From positions 1 through 64,000 of the forward strand of contig JACRFB010000060.1 of assembly GCA_016218045.1 (NCBI GenBank): a stretch of DNA of 64,000 nucleotides. The letters are read 5' to 3'. The DNA comes from Ignavibacteriota bacterium. GTDB lineage: Bacteria > Bacteroidota > Ignavibacteria > SZUA-365. The notes beneath the pieces were generated by a model, which was not told the origin of the DNA, searched no databases, and saw nothing but the letters and a program-made list of their open reading frames with translations. Shown here in pieces: positions 18,186 to 59,212 of this stretch (positions are counted from its first letter, which is position 1; each line of letters starts with the position of its first letter). Made by a program: the position numbers and the translations under genes.

Positions 18186-18622
18186 AGGCGGACGGGATGG
18201 GACGAGCGAATACAAAACGGGGAACGGGAAACGTTGAACGGGGAACGCGTGAACGGGGAACGGCGAACGGAGAACACGTGGTAGGGGAAGGGGGAAGGGG
18301 GAAGAGGGAAGAAGGCAGTGCCGCGCATGACTGCGACTGCACACGGCTCGCCTCGCATGTACAGGATGCGGGTGATGGGACGGATGCGGATGCCGCAGCG
18401 CGAAAAATTCTGATGGCACGTATCGAGGCCGATCCGTTTATGGCGGCGCTCCTCGCTGCCGCGCGGGCGGGCGAGGACTCGTCCGATGATGGGTCTCTCA
18501 AGGAGTAGAGAACGGCATGGCGACATCCGGATGCATCCGATACTTGCGATCGCGTGTGTGCATCGGGATATCAATCGATTGCAGCGTTGTGAACTACATT
18601 AATTGAATCATTCGGAGGACAC
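18186..18622. repeat. Intergenic gap with GAACGGG-type heptamers
   Basis: 437-bp gap. From about 18215 to 18275 it consists of AACGGGG/AACGGGA/AACGTTG heptamers, then GGAAGGGG-type purine runs to about 18325. The rest shows no recognisable gene; open frames here run through repeats and have no family features. A good Shine-Dalgarno (GGAGG, 18614-18618) precedes the ATG at 18623. No clear promoter was found. Confidence 0.6.
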
Positions 18623-19405
18623 ATGACATACGAAACGCTCTTGTGTGCGGTAGAAGACGGGGTGATGACGATCACGCTCAACCGTCCGGATGTGTTGAAT
18701 GCCTTCAACGAACAACTTTCCGCGGATCTGCTCGATGCGTTCCGCGTTGCGGGTGAGGATGCCACCGTGCGTGCCGTGGTGCTGACCGGTACCGGCCGCG
18801 CGTTCTGTTCCGGACAGGATCTGAAGGATATTTCCGACGATCCGACGCGCTCGTTGGCCGACAGTCTGCGACGCCGCTACAATCCGTTGATACGCGCCAT
18901 GCGCGCCCTGCCGAAGCCGATACTTGCGGCGATCAACGGGGCCTGCGCGGGTGCGGGGCTGAGCCTGGCCCTCGCCTGCGATATGCGTTTTGCTTCAGAA
19001 CGCGCGAAGCTCATCCAGGTGTTCATCCGTATCGGACTTGTGCCCGACTCCGGTTCGTCATGGTTCATGCCGCATCTCGTCGGCTACGCGCGCGCCTTCG
19101 AGCTGTGCGCAACCGGCCGCGATGTCACGGCGCAGGAGGCCGCGGAGATCGGTCTCGTGAACAAGGTGATCTCGCCCGAGTTACTCATGGACTACACCAT
19201 GACCGTCGCGAAACGTCTTGCCACCGCGCCGACACAAGCGATCGGCCAGATCAAGGAGATGCTGAACCGCGCCGTGGCAAGCGACCTCGAAACGGCGTTG
19301 CTCTTCGAAGAGGACATGCAGGAGAAGGCCGGCTACAGCCACGACTATCAGGAAGGCAAACGCGCCTTCCTCGAAAAACGTCCGCCGAAATTCGAGGGAC
19401 GATAA
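18623..19405 (+). CDS. Enoyl-CoA hydratase/isomerase family protein (PaaG-like)
   Basis: 260 residues, crotonase fold. Oxyanion-hole segments are GRAFCSGQDLKDI (about 55-67) and NGACAGAGLSLALACD (about 106-121). At the position of the hydratase's second Glu it has GLVPDSGSSWFMPHLVG, the Asp-containing signature of PaaG-type 1,2-epoxyphenylacetyl-CoA or 2,3-dehydroadipyl-CoA isomerases, so isomerisation is more likely than plain hydration. No other phenylacetate genes are in view. It probably serves fatty or aromatic acyl-CoA breakdown together with the mutase and dehydrogenases up to 27.5 kb. Confidence 0.85.
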   Translation: MTYETLLCAVEDGVMTITLNRPDVLNAFNEQLSADLLDAFRVAGEDATVRAVVLTGTGRAFCSGQDLKDISDDPTRSLADSLRRRYNPLIRAMRALPKPILAAINGACAGAGLSLALACDMRFASERAKLIQVFIRIGLVPDSGSSWFMPHLVGYARAFELCATGRDVTAQEAAEIGLVNKVISPELLMDYTMTVAKRLATAPTQAIGQIKEMLNRAVASDLETALLFEEDMQEKAGYSHDYQEGKRAFLEKRPPKFEGR

Positions 19406-19419
19406 ATCTATCCCTCCAC

Positions 19420-19488
19420 GGACGTGCCTCCGGCACGTCCGGGTGCGGGGAGGCGAACGAAATCCACGGACGTGCCTCCGGCACGTCC
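19420..19488. repeat. Two 21-bp stem-loops left of the minisatellite
   Basis: Two identical hairpins at 19420-19440 and 19468-19488. Each has perfect 9-bp arms GGACGTGCC/GGCACGTCC and loop TCC, preceded by CCAC. Read on the minus strand they show loop GGA followed by GTGG, so they face opposite to the four copies at 19897-20066. Confidence 0.85.
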
Positions 19489-19496
19489 GGGCGCGA

Positions 19497-19877
19497 GGCA
19501 TGGCGCATGGCCCGCATGGCGCATGGCCCGCATGGCGCATGGCCCGCATGGCGCATGGCCCGCGTGGCGCATGGCACATGGCACGCACGGCGCATGGCCC
19601 GCATGGCGCATGGCCTGCATGGCGCATGACCCGCATGGCGCATGGCCCGCATGGCGCATGGCCCGCATGGCGCATGGCCCGCAAGGCCCATGGCCAGCAT
19701 GGCGCATGGCCCGCAAGGCGCATGGCCCGCACGGCGCATGGCCCGCATGGCGCATGGCCCGCATGGCGCATGGCCCGCATGGCGCATGGCCCGCATGGCG
19801 CATGGCCCGCATGACGCATGGCACATGGCACGCACGGCGCATGGCACGCATGGCGCATGGCCCGCATGGCGCATCGC
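19497..19877. repeat. 16-bp minisatellite array
   Basis: About 24 copies of the 16-bp unit GCATGGCGCATGGCCC (a heptamer GCATGGC plus a 9-mer) with scattered single-base variants, for example around 19560-19585 and 19815-19845, where CACATGGCACGCACGG units occur. Because 16 is not a multiple of 3, all six frames stay largely open and give long spurious reading frames of 16-residue periodicity. It is not a CRISPR: there are no spacers. Confidence 0.95.
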
Positions 19878-19896
19878 GGCGCTGATGGAAACGCCC

Positions 19897-20066
19897 GGAC
19901 GCGCCGGAGGCGCGTCCGTGGAGGGGTGCCGCGCCGAGGGGGATGGGACGCGCCGGAGGCGCGTCCGTGGAGGGGCGGATTGCCGCGAGGGATTGGACGC
20001 GCCGGAGGCGCGTCCGTGGAGCTTTGCGCGGCCCGCGAGGGAAGCGGGCGGCCGGGACGGCCGCCC
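19897..20066. repeat. Four 21-bp stem-loops right of the minisatellite
   Basis: Hairpins at 19897-19917, 19946-19966, 19995-20015 (arms GGACGCGCC/GGCGCGTCC, loop GGA) and 20046-20066 (arms GGGCGGCCG/CGGCCGCCC, loop GGA). Each is followed by GTGGA. Arm sequences differ from the left copies and from each other but always pair perfectly. Spacing is 49-51 bp. Nothing resembling a gene is present in the whole 19406-20119 gap. Confidence 0.85.
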
Positions 20067-20119
20067 GTGGATGCAAAGCGCAGAATTTCGCATATTTGTG
20101 ATCCACATTTGCGTGTATT

Positions 20120-23100
20120 ATGGAACAGCCCGCCTACTCCCCGGTTCACAAAATCCGCTTCGTCACCGCCGCGTCGCTTTTCGACGGACACGACGTCAGC
20201 ATCAATATCATGCGCCGCATACTCCAGGCCGGCGGCGCCGAGGTCATTCACCTCGGTCATAATCGCTCCGTGTCCGAAATTGTCGACGCGGCTATCCATG
20301 AGGATGCGCAGGGCATCGCCATCTCGTCCTATCAGGGCGGACATATGGAGTACCTGCGCTTCATGAAGGACTTGCTGCGCGAACGCGGCGCGGATCATGT
20401 CAAAATCTTCGCCGGCGGCGGCGGTGTGATCGTGCCCGAAGAGATCGCGGAATTACACGCCTATGGCATCGATCGTGTGTTCTCGCCGCAGGACGGACGC
20501 GACCTCGGCTTGCAGGGCATGATCAATCTCATGCTCGAGGCCTGCGACTATCCCGCGGGACGCGCGCGCGACATCGCGGTGAAAAACGATACGCTGCTCG
20601 TCCATGGCACTCCGGTCGCCGAACTCAACAACGGACTCGCACACGACCGCCTCCTCCTCGCGCAGGCCCTCAGTGTGGTCGAAGAAAATACTTCTGTCAG
20701 CATACCCGTTCCGGAAGGACACCGTGTACCCGTCCTCGGAATCACCGGCACGGGCGGCGCGGGCAAGTCGTCGCTCACGGACGAGATCGTCCGCCGCTTC
20801 CTGCTCGCGTTTCCCGACATGACCATGGCCGTGCTCTCTGTTGATCCGTCGAAACGCCGCACGGGCGGAGCCCTGCTCGGCGACCGCATCCGCATGAACG
20901 CGATCGCCACCAGCGATCCGCAGGGGAGCACGCGCGTCTTCATGCGCTCGTTTGCGACGCGGGCCGCCAACACCGCGACATCCGCCGCGCTGCACCGCTC
21001 CATCGACCTGTGCAAGACCGCGGGCTTCGATCTCGTCATCGTCGAAACCGCGGGAATAGGGCAGTCGGATTCGGCCATCGTCGATCTTGTCGATGTGTCG
21101 ATGTATGTAATGACCCCGGAATACGGGGCGCAGACGCAGCTCGAAAAAATCGACATGCTCGATCTGGCCGATCTGGTCGTGCTGAACAAGTTCGAGAAAC
21201 GTGGCGCCGAGGACGCGCTCCGCGACGTGCGCAAACAGTACCGCCGCAATCACGGGCTGTGGGACGCGCGCGACGAGGATCTGCCCGTCTATGCCACCAT
21301 CGCCAGCCAGTTCAACGACCGAGGCACCAACTACCTCTTCGCCTCGCTGCTCCGTCTCATCGACACAAAAACCGGCACCGCGTGGAGCACCGACGTCGCC
21401 GTCGACGCGACACTTCCCGACAAGGCCGCCGTGATCCCGCCCGAACGCTCGCGCTACCTGTCGGAAATCGCCGATAGCGTGCGCGACTACAAGACGTGGG
21501 CCGCCGAGCAGTGTTCGCACGCGCGCAAGTGGTATCAGCTCGAGGGCGCAGCGCGTGTGCTCGCCGAAGGCGCGTCACGCCGCGAACTGCGCATCTCCGG
21601 CGCCGAAGGCACCGTCGAAATAGGCGAAGGCGCGCTGCGCGCGGACCTGCTCGAGGCGCTCGAAGCCCAGATCGGCCACTTCCGCTCGCTGGTTACTCCC
21701 GAGAATCGCGACCTGCTCGCGCAGTGGAACGACGCGAAACAGGCCTACCGCCAGGACAAACTTGTCACACGCGTGCGCGACCGCGAAATCGTCACCGACC
21801 TGTACACGACCACACTCTCGGGCACACGCGTCCCCAAGGTGGCGCTGCCGCAGTTCGAGGACTGGGGCGACGTGCTGCGATGGATACTGCTTGAAAATGT
21901 ACCGGGTTCCTTCCCGTACGCCGCGGGTGTGTTTCCCTTCAAGCGCGAGAACGAGGATCCGACACGCATGTTTGCGGGCGAGGGCGCACCCGAGCGCACC
22001 AACCGCCGTTTCCACTACGTGTCGCAGGGCATGCCCGCCGCGCGCCTGTCCACGGCTTTCGACTCCGTGACGCTGTACGGCGAGGATCCGCACGAGCGTC
22101 CCGACATCTACGGCAAGATCGGCAACTCGGGCGTGTCGATATGCACGCTCGACGATATGAAGAAGCTCTATTGCGGCTTCGATCTCTGCGCGCCGACTAC
22201 CTCGGTGTCCATGACCATCAACGGTCCGGCGCCCATGATTCTCGCGATGTTCATGAACACGGCCATCGACCAACAGGTCGAGAAATGGCTGGTATTGAAC
22301 GGCAGGTACACCGAGGCACGCGCGGCCATCGACGGACACTTCGCCGCGCTCGGCATGACACGCCCGGTGTATGCGGGCGTCGACAACTTCACGGAGGTGC
22401 TCGACGAACTCGGCGATTCCGCGCACTTCGCGAAGGGCGCGCGTGTGCACCGCTATTTCGGACTCGGCACGCTGGGGGTTCACGGACCCTGGCTCGTGGA
22501 GCGCGGACTCGTGCCGGCCGACGTGTACGCGTCCATCGCGGCGGAAACCATGGCCAATGTGCGCGGCACGGTACAGGCCGACATCCTCAAGGAGGATCAG
22601 GCCCAGAACACCTGCATCTTCTCGACGGAGTTTGCGCTCAAGATGATGGGTGACATTCAGGATAACTTTGTCCGGAATTCCGTCCGCAACTACTACTCGG
22701 TGTCGATATCGGGATATCACATCGCCGAGGCCGGGGCGAATCCGATCACGCAGCTCGCCTTCACGCTCGCCAACGGTTTCACCTACGTCGAGTATTACCT
22801 CTCGCGGGGCATGCACATCGACGACTTCGCGCCGAACCTCTCGTTTTTCTTCTCGAACGGCATCGACGCCGAGTACTCGGTGATCGGCCGTGTGGCGCGG
22901 CGCATCTGGTCCGTCGCGATGAAGAATCTGTACGGCGCGAACGACCGCTCGCAGAAGCTGAAGTACCACATCCAGACCAGCGGCCGTTCGCTGCACGCGA
23001 TGGAGATCGACTTCAACGACATCCGCACCACGCTGCAGGCCCTCTACGCGATTTACGACAACTGCAATTCGCTGCACACCAACGCCTACGACGAGGCGAT

Positions 23101-23668
23101 TACCACGCCCACCGAGGAGAGCGTGCGCCGCGCCCTCGCCATACAGCTCATCATCAATCGCGAGCTGGGTCTGGCGAAGAACGAGAATCCCCTGCAGGGC
23201 GCCTTTATCATCGAGGAACTCACCGACCTGGTCGAGGAGGCGGTGCTGGCGGAATTCCGTCGCATCTCCGACCGCGGCGGGGTGCTGGGCGCGATGGAGA
23301 CGATGTACCAGCGCGGCAAAATACAGGAGGAGTCGCTCCTCTATGAACATCTCAAACACAGCGGCGAGCTGCCGATCATCGGCGTCAACACGTTCCTCCG
23401 CCCCGAACATCTGGCCTCGCACGAATCACAGCCGACCGAATTGATCCGTTCGACCGAGGACGAGAAGGTCCGGCAGATCGAGAACGTGCGCGCCTTCCAA
23501 CAACGGAACGCCTCGGCCGCGAATGCCGCGCTCGCCGCCGTGCAACAGGCGGCACAGGAGCACGCGAACGTGTTCGACCGCCTGCTCGAAGCCGTGCGCG
23601 TGGCCTCGCTCGGACAGATTTCGGCCGCCCTCTACGCCGTGGGCGGGCAATACCGCAGGAACATGTAA
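20120..23668 (+). CDS. icmF: Fused isobutyryl-CoA mutase (IcmF)
   Basis: 1182 residues, the IcmF architecture in one chain. An N-terminal adenosylcobalamin domain (about 10-140, [14 protein letters not shown]) is followed by a MeaB-like G-protein chaperone domain (about 205-440; Walker [12 protein letters not shown] near 209-219; base loop LNKFE) and the large substrate-binding mutase barrel to the end. IcmF interconverts isobutyryl-CoA and n-butyryl-CoA; some relatives act on isovaleryl/pivalyl-CoA, which I cannot exclude. The domain order rules out ordinary two-subunit methylmalonyl-CoA mutase. The start is 15 bp after a TATTTG-rich stretch, with no clear Shine-Dalgarno. Transcribed alone; it converges with the next gene, with 40 bp between stops. 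Confidence 0.93.
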
Positions 23669-25646: not shown

Positions 25647-26522
25647 ATGAATCAACACATGGCAATCGGCATACTCGGCGGTGGCGCGATGGGACGCGGT
25701 ATCGCCATCGCGGCGCTGCTGGCGGAGAAACGCGTGACGTTGTTCGACGCGTTTATCGAGAGCCGCGACGCGGCGTGGGACGGCATCAGCCGCACGCTTT
25801 CGGGTCTCGTGGACAAGGGGAAGATTCCCGCGGAACAGCGCGACAGGGCTCTTTCCGCCCTGCGCATCACGGGCGGCTTCGACGAACTCGTTTCGTCGAG
25901 CATTGTCATCGAGGCGGTGCCGGAATCGCTCGAACTCAAGAAGCGGCTCTTTGCCGACCTCTCCGCGCTCTGCGACGAGCGGACCATCTTCGCTTCCAAC
26001 ACGTCTTCTCTTTCCATCACCGTTCTGTCGACGGGTGTGAAGAATCCATCGCGCGTGGCGGGCATGCACTTCTTCAATCCCGCCCATCTGATGAAACTTG
26101 TCGAAGTCGTGGCGGGCCGTTTTACATCCGACGACACCATCGACAGCGTAATGCAGCTCGCGCGTGAACTCGGGAAGACGCCCGTCGAAACGCGCGACAC
26201 CCCCGGCTTCATCGTGAACCGCGTGGCGCGGCCCTTCTACACCGAATCGCTGCGCATCGCCGAGGAGCGTGTGGCCGACATCGACACCATCGACCGCATC
26301 GTGCGCGGACACGGATTCCGTATGGGACCCTTCGAGCTGATGGACTTCATCGGCCACGATGTGAATTACGAAGTCACGCGCTCGCTCTACGAGGCATTTA
26401 ATGGCGAACCGCGGTACCGTCCCTCGTTTCTTCAGAAAGCCCTTGTCGAAGCCGGCCTCTTCGGACGCAAATCGGGCAGGGGATTTTATACATACGACAC
26501 GGAGCAAGGAACTAGGAAGTAG
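25647..26522 (+). CDS. 3-hydroxyacyl-CoA dehydrogenase (3-hydroxybutyryl-CoA dehydrogenase type)
   Basis: 291 residues. It oxidises 3-hydroxyacyl-CoA with NAD. Rossmann motif GILGGGAMGRGIA (8-20); IEAVPESLELKK; SNTSSLSIT; catalytic His segment GMHFFNPAHLMKLVEV (about 141-156); DTPGFIVNRVARPF; and the C-terminal helix domain ending SGRGFYTY. The ATG at 25647 has a GGAGAGAGAG purine tract upstream; earlier in-frame starts read through the leader. The last codons (GTRK) and the TAG stop are made by the first units of the following repeat array, so array slippage would change the tail. Confidence 0.93.
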   Translation: MNQHMAIGILGGGAMGRGIAIAALLAEKRVTLFDAFIESRDAAWDGISRTLSGLVDKGKIPAEQRDRALSALRITGGFDELVSSSIVIEAVPESLELKKRLFADLSALCDERTIFASNTSSLSITVLSTGVKNPSRVAGMHFFNPAHLMKLVEVVAGRFTSDDTIDSVMQLARELGKTPVETRDTPGFIVNRVARPFYTESLRIAEERVADIDTIDRIVRGHGFRMGPFELMDFIGHDVNYEVTRSLYEAFNGEPRYRPSFLQKALVEAGLFGRKSGRGFYTYDTEQGTRK

Positions 26523-26815
26523 GAACGAGGAGCTAGGAACTAGGAACTAGGAAGTAGGAAGTAGGAAGTAGGAACGAGGAGCTAGGATCTAGTAACGAGG
26601 CTCACATCAAATCAGTTCCCAGTTCCCAGTCCCCAGTTCCCAGTTCCCAGTCCCCAGTTCCCAGTCCCCAGTCCCCAGTTCCCAGTCCCCAGATCCTAGT
26701 TCCCAGTCCCCAGTCCCCAGTCCCCAGTCCCCAGTTCCCAGTCCCCAGTTCCCAGTCCCCAGTCCCCAGTTCCCAGTTCCCAGTTCCCACTCCCTACTCC
26801 CAACTCCCCAGTCCG
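26507..26815. repeat. Back-to-back heptamer arrays of opposite strand polarity
   Basis: 26507-26592 carries GGAACTA/GGAAGTA heptamers. After about 20 bp of unique DNA (near 26595-26613) the polarity flips, and 26614-26806 carries CCCAGTT/CCCAGTC/CCCCAGT heptamers, about 27 copies. In 26703-26736 five CCC(C) tracts are spaced by AGT, so the minus strand has GGGGACT tandem units with strong G-quadruplex potential. The array starts at the TAG stop of the gene before and ends 16 bp before the ATG of the gene after, replacing its whole leader. Confidence 0.93.
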
Positions 26816-37215: not shown

Positions 37216-37456
37216 TTGAATTTCAGAATCCAGAATCCAGAATTCAGAATCCAGAACATTTCCTAGTTCCTAGTTCCCAGTTCCTAGTTCCCAGTTCCTA
37301 GTTCCCAGTTCCTAGTTCCTAGTTCCTAGTTCCTAGTTCCCAGTTCCCAGTTCCCAGTTCCTAGTTCCTAGTTCCTAGTTCCCAGTTCCCAGTTCCCAGT
37401 TCCCAGTTCCCAGTTCCCAGTTCCCAGTTCCCAGTTCCCAGTTCCCAGTTCCCAGT
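37216..37456. repeat. CAGAATC and CCTAGTT/CCCAGTT heptamer arrays
   Basis: 37221-37258 holds CAGAATC/CAGAATT heptamers. 37262-37380 holds CTAGTTC/CCAGTTC heptamers, and 37381-37450 holds ten perfect CCCAGTT copies. The minus strand of the last block is GGGAACT tandem, a G3-N4 telomere-like pattern that could form a G-quadruplex. The block ends about 10 bp before the -35 box of the tRNA gene. The 60 bp after the regulator stop at 37156 show no clear terminator. Confidence 0.95.
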
Positions 37457-37465
37457 CCAGATCAC

Positions 37466-37494
37466 TTGCATTCGTCCAACGAGGATTTTATATT
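37466..37494 (+). promoter_or_regulatory. Bacteroidota-type promoter of tRNA-Gly
   Basis: -35 TTGCAT (37466-37471), 17 bp, -10 TATATT (37489-37494), read as TATATTTG, an exact TAnnTTTG element. The start should fall near 37501, about 6 nt before the mature tRNA. Confidence 0.75.
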
Positions 37495-37506
37495 TGTAAA
37501 CCCTCT

Positions 37507-37582
<76 letters not shown>

Positions 37583-37586
37583 CAGA

Positions 37587-37610
37587 CCCTCCAAACCGGA
37601 GGGTTTTTCT
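37587..37610 (+). terminator. Intrinsic terminator of tRNA-Gly
   Basis: Stem CCCTCC (37587-37592) with GGAGGG (37598-37603), 5-nt loop AAACC, then TTTTTCTTTTTT. It begins 4 nt after the CCA end. Confidence 0.9.
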
Positions 37611-37650
37611 TTTTTATTGCCAATTCGTTGCAGCACAGCCTGGTTCCTGT

Positions 37651-37805
37651 AGCAAGGTAGCAAGGTAGCAAGGTAGCAATGTGGCAACTCCCAACTCCCC
37701 CGTCCCTCGTCCCCTCTCCTAGATCCAAGTTCCTAGATCCAAGTTCCTAGTTCCAAGTTCCTAGTTCCTAGTTCCTAGTTCCTAGTTCCTTGATCCTAGA
37801 TCCTA
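37651..37805. repeat. AGCAAGGT octamers and CTAGTTC/CTAGATC heptamers
   Basis: Three perfect AGCAAGGT octamers plus a partial one (37651-37680) repeat, on the opposite strand, the ACCTTGCT octamers at 1527. After a short unique part, 37717-37805 is CTAGATCCAAGTTC-like heptamer pairs and CTAGTTC copies. The last unit contains the CTA that forms the TAG stop (37803-37805) of the minus-strand PAP2 gene. Together with the previous entries this explains the 646-bp gap apart from the tRNA. Confidence 0.9.
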
Positions 37806-38750
37806 GAAGCTCCTTCCTTCTCGAAGTCGCGCCAGCCACGCGCCCAGCCAGAGAGTGAGAAAGACAAACACCGCGCCGGCCAGCAGATCCACAACATAGT
37901 GGTAGCGCAGATACACCGTGGCGAAGATCAGGAGCGATCCTGTCACTGCGAGCGGCCAGCGCGATCGCGCGCGCGTGCGGAAGGCGAGGATGATGACGAG
38001 CAGTGTCATCTGCGTATGCCCGCTCGGGAAACAGTCGCGTTGCACCACCTTTTCGGGATCAGGTGTGCCGGGTGGAATCGATTCGCCTGTGTTCGTCATC
38101 TCGCGTAGATACGAAGTGACAAACAGGCCGGGCAGTTCTGCCTCCGTTCTTTCAAAATCGTGCAGGGTGAAACGCGGGCCTATGGCAGGCAGGCCCACGT
38201 ATCCAAAATAGGAGAGGAAAAATCCAAGAATGGTGATGAAGATCACGTTGCGCGAAGCGTCGAAGCGTCCCGAGCGGTGCAGGTCTGCCGCAAGCACGAC
38301 GGGCAGGAAGTAGAAAGTGCCGTAGGCGATCTGCAGGATTTCCGTCAGCAGTGGATGTGCAAGTGCGGCGAGCACGTGTGTCGGATCAGTGCCAAAAAGC
38401 CAGCGGTCGGCGGCGATGAGCAGGTAATCGTAGTCGTGCGGATGCAGGGCGGGGCCGATGAAATACACTTCCTTGAACGCCAGAGGTATCAGCAGCATAC
38501 GCGCGTACCCGTGCGCGAGCTTCCAGCCCGCGTGGCGTTTTTCCACGAGGCGTGCTGCGGCGAAAACGGCGATGATCACGGCAATGTTGACGGCCGTGTA
38601 CAGGCCCCACAGCGGGATCGATGCCGCGCCTGCAATCAGACCCGCGGTGAGGATCAGGAAAAAGACAACGATGACGGAGTCGAGTATGTCGAGACGGGCG
38701 AGATGGGCTTTCATGGGGAGGACGGGAAGGATGCGGACTCCGCCGTTCAC
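37803..38750 (-). CDS. PAP2-superfamily membrane phosphatase/transferase
   Basis: 315 residues with about seven hydrophobic helices. The PAP2 motifs are seen as RDCFPSGHT (about 236-244, the PSGH core) and YLRYHYVVDLLAG (about 279-291, with the catalytic His and Asp). The first motif of the classical lipid phosphatase is weak, so it may be of the inositol-phosphorylceramide-synthase-like branch. Likely substrates are lipid phosphates such as undecaprenyl pyrophosphate or phosphatidylglycerophosphate; not decidable. The GTG at 38750 gives a 4-bp overlap with rsmA; an ATG at 38714 is an alternative start. The TAG stop lies inside a heptamer array. Confidence 0.82.
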   Translation of the reverse strand: MNGGVRILPVLPMKAHLARLDILDSVIVVFFLILTAGLIAGAASIPLWGLYTAVNIAVIIAVFAAARLVEKRHAGWKLAHGYARMLLIPLAFKEVYFIGPALHPHDYDYLLIAADRWLFGTDPTHVLAALAHPLLTEILQIAYGTFYFLPVVLAADLHRSGRFDASRNVIFITILGFFLSYFGYVGLPAIGPRFTLHDFERTEAELPGLFVTSYLREMTNTGESIPPGTPDPEKVVQRDCFPSGHTQMTLLVIILAFRTRARSRWPLAVTGSLLIFATVYLRYHYVVDLLAGAVFVFLTLWLGAWLARLREGRSF

Positions 38751-43296: not shown

Positions 43297-43390
43297 ATCG
43301 GAGTAGGGAGTGGGGAGTGAGGAGTAGGGAGCTAGGAATAAGGAGTAGGGAGTAGGGAGTCGGGGCGGTGGAGTGGTGAGTCGGGGCACG
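43297..43390. repeat. GGAGTAG heptamer array after lptC
   Basis: GGAGTAG, GGAGTGG, GGAGTGA, GGAGCTA and related heptamers on the plus strand, decaying by about 43390. The array begins at the lptC TAG stop. The remaining bases to the next gene show no clear promoter. Confidence 0.85.
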
Positions 43391-58551: not shown

Positions 58552-59151
58552 ATGTCCCTTCCTCACGTGATTCTCGGATTCCTGCACTACGCTCCTGCGT
58601 CTGGATACGATCTCAAAAAAACTTTCGACGCCACGGTGCGGCACTTCTGGCCGGCGGACCAGAGTCAGATCTACCGCACGTTGACACAGTTGTCGGCGGA
58701 CGGGCTCATCGATGTCACAGAAGTGGTGCAGACGGGAAAACCGAACAAAAAAATCTACTCCATCACCAAAACGGGCGAAAAGGAATTGCGAACATGGCTG
58801 CGTGCACCCGACACTGGCGGACCGCTGCGCAACAGCGCCCTCGTGCGTGTGTTTTTTCTCGGCAATCTCGAGAACGAAACCATACTCGGCATGCTCGAGC
58901 ACGCTGAGAGTGGTCTGCTCGAGGAAATACGGCGGTATGAGGCGGTGCCTGCCGAAGTGGACCGAGATGCGGCATTTCCCGTGTCAAAACGTGAACGCTT
59001 TTTCTGGATGCTGACGCTCGAGTACGGGCTCGCGATGGCCCGCGCCGAGCATGAATGGCTCCAATCAATACAGAGGCGGATCACGAAGAAGTCGTATAAG
59101 AATGTGTTTGCGCCCCGGAGGAAGAGAGGGGGGAGGGAACCGGGTCGGTAG
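58552..59151 (+). CDS. PadR family transcriptional regulator
   Basis: 199 residues. N-terminal winged helix: LGFLHYAPASGYDLKKTFD, QSQIYRTLTQLSADGLID and KKIYSITKTGEKEL (about 7-80). The C-terminal half is the Vir-type helical dimerisation domain (FFLGNLENETILGMLEHAE, WMLTLEYGLAMARAEHEWL). Such proteins repress genes for efflux or phenolic-acid detoxification; targets here may be the UroD-like gene or the TonB receptor, both adjacent. The ATG at 58552 starts at the conserved domain. The TAG stop is made by the first GTAGATGG repeat unit. Confidence 0.92.
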   Translation: MSLPHVILGFLHYAPASGYDLKKTFDATVRHFWPADQSQIYRTLTQLSADGLIDVTEVVQTGKPNKKIYSITKTGEKELRTWLRAPDTGGPLRNSALVRVFFLGNLENETILGMLEHAESGLLEEIRRYEAVPAEVDRDAAFPVSKRERFFWMLTLEYGLAMARAEHEWLQSIQRRITKKSYKNVFAPRRKRGGREPGR

Positions 59152-59212
59152 ATGGGTAGATGGTAGATGGCAGATGGGTAGATGGTGGATGGGTCGTGGG
59201 TGTACAAGCGAT
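59149..59212. repeat. GTAGATG heptamer array before the TonB receptor
   Basis: GTAGATG, GCAGATG, GTGGATG heptamers (with GGTAGATG octamers), the same family as 1254-1497. It starts at the padR TAG stop and ends about 10 bp before the ATG of the TonB-dependent receptor, so it occupies its whole leader. Confidence 0.9.

Follow-up and report, generated by a model that had tools for sequence, protein, structure and literature searches.

The six stem-loops that flank a minisatellite in the window, by which we mean the whole stretch of 64,000 nucleotides that was analysed, belong to a dispersed palindrome family of this Ignavibacteriota bacterium. Covariance models R1 and R2 revealed about 30 near-identical copies in at least seven places of the genome, and the family is most likely private to the lineage. 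On balance, we favour the view that the stem-loops represent a lineage-private REP-like palindrome, kept as folded single-stranded DNA and probably spread by a Y1-type transposase that is now unlinked or lost. The locus comprises the following features, with hairpins written on the strand that carries the GGA loop:

18623..19405, plus strand: enoyl-CoA hydratase/isomerase gene, the left neighbour (Pfam ECH_1, E 4.5e-70)
19406..20119, no strand: intergenic gap of 714 bp with hairpins and minisatellite, from the enoyl-CoA hydratase gene to the IcmF-type gene
19420..19440, minus strand: hairpin copy 1, GGACGTGCC-GGA-GGCACGTCC, then GTGGA (model R1, 52.4 bits)
19468..19488, minus strand: hairpin copy 2, GGACGTGCC-GGA-GGCACGTCC, then GTGGA (R1, 46.8 bits)
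19498..19874, plus strand: 16-bp minisatellite GCATGGCGCATGGCCC, 22.7 copies, outside the dispersed family
19897..19917, plus strand: hairpin copy 3, GGACGCGCC-GGA-GGCGCGTCC, then GTGGAG (R1, 53.7 bits)
19946..19966, plus strand: hairpin copy 4, GGACGCGCC-GGA-GGCGCGTCC, then GTGGAG (R1, 55.3 bits)
19995..20015, plus strand: hairpin copy 5, GGACGCGCC-GGA-GGCGCGTCC, then GTGGAG (R1, 49.5 bits)
20046..20066, plus strand: hairpin copy 6, GGGCGGCCG-GGA-CGGCCGCCC, then GTGGAT (R1, 44.3 bits)
20120..23668, plus strand: fused B12-binding/MeaB GTPase/mutase gene of the IcmF type, the right neighbour (Pfam B12-binding, MeaB, MM_CoA_mutase)

The initial annotation had described six 9-3-9 stem-loops in opposed orientation around the 16-bp array, and this arrangement is indeed present, with two minus-strand copies on the left and four plus-strand copies on the right. 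Its three arm types (GGACGTGCC twice, GGACGCGCC three times, GGGCGGCCG once) pair at nine of nine positions in each hairpin, and in four of the six the stem reaches 10 bp. The GTGG it had noted behind the right-hand four is correct, yet the tag is both longer and more general, since GTGGA follows all six hairpins when they are read on the GGA-loop strand. Copy 6 differs from copies 3-5 in four pairs, each of them changed on both sides. According to window shuffles, the chance expectation for the 26-mer pattern of hairpin plus tag is 0.00 in the window.

In the relative G012, a member of another family within the same taxonomic order, only 11 bp separate the two flanking genes, compared with 714 bp here; the stretch was therefore gained here or lost there. 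The two proteins of G012 share 79% and 69% identity with those encoded in the window. Within the window's own family, several genomes have the mutase gene directly behind a mutL-like gene. The window also contains many 7-8-bp minisatellites (136-307, 1255-1494, 18216-18303, 26507-26814, 37224-37806, 43300-43364 and 59147-59194), the like of which occur around other hairpin clusters as well, and the Pfam search matched the T9SS-type sorting domain Por_Secre_tail, which may point to the Bacteroidota/Chlorobi side.

The genome assembly consists of 72 contigs, denoted here by C-numbers. Members of the family were found at these sites:

C60 (the window): 6 copies
C72:157950-158239: 6 copies with a 51-bp period
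C24:84665-85437: 8 copies, all in the same orientation
C6:1563-1648: 2 copies between convergent genes
C44:9945-10129: 4 copies
C57:32433-32640: 3 copies with looser spacing, upstream of a gene
C40:129597: 1 copy, mismatched
C22:11946-12034 and C22:28795-28872: degenerate pairs, additional to the main list

All clusters examined are intergenic, and neighbouring copies are mostly 48-54 bp apart and mostly head to tail. Model R1 was built from the first copies found, and the model E-values are rough. According to the initial annotation, confinement of the pattern to this locus or arm mutations without matching changes would have spoken against an element under structural selection. The genome-wide copies dispose of the former, whereas the latter applies to a small extent: three of the 30 copies carry one uncompensated mismatch, and the pair at C22:11946-12034, located upstream of a gene, is weaker and more decayed than the main copies. 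The hairpins at C57:32433-32640 and this decayed pair precede, at short distance, two VWA-domain genes that are paralogues of each other, which is the only hint of a common gene context.

Among roughly 800 genomes sampled from the class and phylum, the family turned up in no other one. In 40 relatives, neither the exact pattern nor model R1 gave matches other than those in the genome itself. The same holds true for model R2 in 391 genomes of the class and 395 of the phylum, where scoring was limited to the 19 best first-look candidates of each genome, which means that weak copies, or copies present in small number, may have escaped. A pattern scan of viral contigs yielded three single matches.

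Evidence for a conserved fold comes from the arms. Seven perfectly paired types occur (GGACGCGCC, GGACGTGCC, GGGCGGCCG, GGACGGCCG, GGACGGCCC, GGTCGGCCG and GCGCGGCCG); the arms differ between clusters yet stay paired, with 9/9 pairing in 27 of 30 copies. In the covariation alignment, which was fitted to the model and includes three antisense readings among its rows, 98.6% of the cells are paired, compared with 79% in shuffles, and covariation amounts to 0.411 versus 0.094. Double-sided changes affect five of the nine stem pairs (45 cells), whereas one-sided changes to another standard pair were seen in no cell. Re-dealing whole arms gave a mean of 5.9 perfect copies versus the 27 observed. When the copies were reduced to one for each combination of locus and arm type, 9 of the remaining 12 were perfect as opposed to a mean of 1.5 after shuffling, and this value was never reached in 100,000 shuffles. 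As an outside control, 84,980 species genomes yielded 41 matches to the degenerate 26-mer pattern, none of them with a 9/9 stem.

It is important to note that one-sided G-U pairs are absent from all 279 cells. Pairing as DNA, or copying of one arm onto the other, thus appears to fit better than selection on RNA. This bears on the idea that the hairpins are RNA elements, which would be transcribed and stabilise or process an mRNA between the two genes. The predicted RNA folds are stable (-16 to -21 kcal/mol, z -3.4 to -4.4), and the two genes on either side of the hairpins point the same way and are almost contiguous in G012. Nevertheless, we give this idea only a slim chance: apart from the missing G-U pairs, both orientations occur within the window, the C6 cluster sits between convergent genes and those of C57 and C22 upstream of genes, and no Rfam match was obtained. 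An intrinsic terminator was ruled out, as there is no terminator-like site in 19200-20300. The earlier reading of the matched arm changes is supported in part: there is a dispersed, REP-like palindrome family with matched changes, in a genome with Y1/RAYT-type genes, one of them bracketed by inverted arrays. Selection on RNA is not supported, as G-U intermediates and a terminator-like site are lacking.

Arm-to-arm copying leads to another explanation, according to which the hairpins are a passive palindromic minisatellite. A 50-bp unit would have arisen once and spread by slippage and by recombination from one intergenic region to another. Template switching at quasi-palindromes, which copies one arm onto the other, would have kept the arms perfect without transposase or selection. 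The arrays are head to tail, minisatellites abound in this genome, and under template switching one would expect mainly double changes and few one-sided ones, as in our data. Furthermore, the C60 and C72 arrays can be aligned over about 131 bp, spacers included, and for C24 and C44 the alignment extends over 147 bp. In C72 and C24, the homology of some spacers is still plain to see; together with the C60/C72 alignment, this indicates that the unit spreads by tandem duplication, too. However, hairpin and tag share 93-100% identity within arrays whereas spacers share 59-90%, and in three arrays only 59-63%; the corresponding values for random GC-rich 24-mers are 0.50 (mean) and 0.61 (95th percentile). 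Template switching could not conserve an unpaired GTGGA tag, and the inverted placement on either side of the window array requires an extra step. We therefore regard the passive scenario as possible, but clearly less likely than a REP-like family. Conversely, plain tandem duplication and recombination could also spread the 50-bp unit, which counts against the need for a transposase.

A search for a RAYT/Y1 gene, as the initial annotation had proposed, was successful only in part. The genome has five matches to PF01797 (Y1_Tnp), four of them over the cut-off; the NCBIfam model REP_Tyr_transpos reached a mere 30.9 bits versus a cut-off of 80. A cognate RAYT of the window hairpins was not found: model R2, applied to 44 Y1 loci from this and related genomes, gave no convincing window-type hairpin, and the match with the lowest E-value resembles coding sequence.

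Other hairpin families do accompany Y1 genes. At C46:35724-36801, a Y1 gene (C46:35960-36499) lies inside inverted tandem two-hairpin units of 72-74 bp, with three minus and three plus hairpins of the type CCCACGCC-4-GGCGTGGG in opposite orientation to the left and right of the gene; their arms differ from those of the window family. The corresponding pattern has about 40 matches in the genome, several of them in brackets with minus on the left and plus on the right. Those at C46:30.5 kb, C53, C61, C63 and C55 keep both ends of the C46 element while most of the gene is gone, and the break points of the gene-deleted copies, at least five in number, differ. The C46 element and these loci look like an element with miniature derivatives. 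The window hairpins have the same bracket geometry as the C46 gene and its gene-deleted derivatives. Apparently, there is also a third family: CCCCGGGC hairpins followed by CTGG or CTAG lie beside further Y1 genes (L024:946 in C50; C18:77872 and 78303), surrounded at C50 and C18 by repeated GCCCGGAGCG-type motifs.

Tandem hairpins of a similar principle, albeit of unrelated sequence, flank Y1 genes in two relatives. In G002, hairpins spaced at 43-51 bp, some of them GTAG-tagged, stand beside a Y1 gene. In G016, hairpins with 9-bp stems, of which several compensated versions exist, alternate around a Y1 gene with GTGG or GTGC behind them at G016:C41:1588-2911; at least four arm types (GCGTCACCG, GCAACACCG, GCGCTACCG and GCGATACCC) with TTTA or TTCA loops were recognised there.

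How does the window family compare with known systems? The initial annotation knew of no described family with exactly this shape. As a general claim this would be too strong, since the literature records REPs that combine stems of 6-9 bp and loops of 2-4 nt with a tetranucleotide tag, also in GTGG versions, and with compensated variation of the stem (PMC3733652). GTAG-tagged REPs come closest: they share a stem of 6-9 bp, a loop of 2-4 nt, a terminal tag of four nucleotides, stem variants with compensated changes and intergenic clusters (PMC3733652). The nearest examples are GTAG-20 of Opitutus terrae, mostly GTGG-tagged, and GTAG-23 of T. roseum, which is clustered (Di Nocera 2013, PMC3733652); we found no closer match in the literature on the Bacteroidota/Chlorobi side. 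As expected of a REP in general, the window family is a repeated short intergenic palindrome (20-40 bp, short loop) in about 30 copies at no fewer than seven places, its stem kept by compensated changes. The copy number falls short of the usual >100 (PMC2817692), even if weak, decayed copies may add a few. In GTAG-tagged REPs, GT[AG]G stands 0-2 nt 5' of the foot, whereas here GTGG lies 3' of the hairpin and the 5' foot on the opposite strand is CCAC. Head-to-tail arrays of about 50 bp dominate, although the REPs described so far seldom form head-to-tail pairs (PMC3733652), and there is no linked transposase. A Y1 HUH transposase gene is present in the genome, as in REPtrons, but at the Y1 genes examined here and in relatives none is flanked by the window hairpins. 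Because of this and the CCAC foot, strict membership of the GTAG-REP/RAYT group does not apply.

The likeness to REPtrons, or TnpA-REP (RAYT) systems (PMC6006769, PMC2817692), lies in a genome with Y1 HUH transposases, one inside inverted hairpin arrays of the same geometry. The difference is that the bracketed gene has hairpins of another family and that no gene was found for those of the window. With their Y motif YIKNQKEHH, the Y1 proteins of this genome resemble those of subclass 1.2, a group without a listed REP (PMC6006769). The lack of a linked gene is not decisive, since many E. coli strains are described as having lost REPtrons, and no transposase is known for CGTC repeats (PMC3733652). 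Indeed, CGTC-tagged REPs, known from Chlorobi, Bacteroidetes and others (PMC3733652), are likewise dispersed palindromes without a dedicated transposase; in contrast to them, the window family lacks both the unpaired CGTC tag and the AT pairs at the foot of the stem, and its loop has three rather than 4-5 nt. Opposite orientations around a spacer, as in the window and C22, are reminiscent of REPINs or BIMEs, but most copies are head to tail and not inverted doublets. A CRISPR array was ruled out, as spacers are shared within clusters (C72, C24) and repeats invert within one locus.

It had also been suggested that array and hairpins form one composite element, the minisatellite moving together with its inverted flanks. 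The bracket geometry, identical to that of the gene-deleted Y1 elements, agrees with this suggestion, as does the C24:84665-85437 cluster, which brackets an array too, albeit a different one of 21 bp. In that case (CGCGGAATGATGTGACCATCA, about 16 copies, L056:2863-3196) the array lies between two same-facing clusters of the window family, and all C24 hairpins face the same way, which counts against the suggestion. The 16-bp array is found nowhere else in the genome (all 22 genome matches to the tested 29-mer fall inside the window array), and most clusters, namely C72, C6, C44, C57 and C22, bracket no such array. A composite element is thus not supported and seems very improbable. Since the array is unique to the locus and tandem arrays occur near most hairpin clusters, its place amid the hairpins is best regarded as accidental, even though C24 repeats the arrangement. 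The 16-bp minisatellite probably expanded on its own within the gap, in a genome full of such arrays.

Being dispersed, folded, tagged, covarying and lineage-private, the window family works like a REP family. Its unit is a 21-nt hairpin with a GTGGA tag on a block of about 50 bp. In the scenario we prefer, the palindrome would be maintained because it functions as folded single-stranded DNA. The hairpin would most likely be recognised by a single-strand transposase of the Y1 (IS200/RAYT) type, which inserted copies of hairpin blocks into intergenic gaps; that such an enzyme moved the family is what we infer from the comparison with other systems, and it may since have become unlinked or lost. 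A more specific version, in which a Y1 transposase of the subclass so far without listed REPs moves the CCAC-foot family in trans as head-to-tail 50-bp blocks and thereby forms inverted brackets where minisatellites grow, strikes us as rather doubtful.

With our analysis, a little-studied lineage gains a private REP-like family, unusual for its GTGG on the 3' side and its head-to-tail 50-bp blocks. The same genome also harbours a Y1 element that has hairpin arrays of its own, and several copies of this element have lost most of the gene. Together, the window family and the C46 element offer a good setting for learning how hairpin repeats get copied, and whether compensated arms originate from transposase recognition or from template switching.
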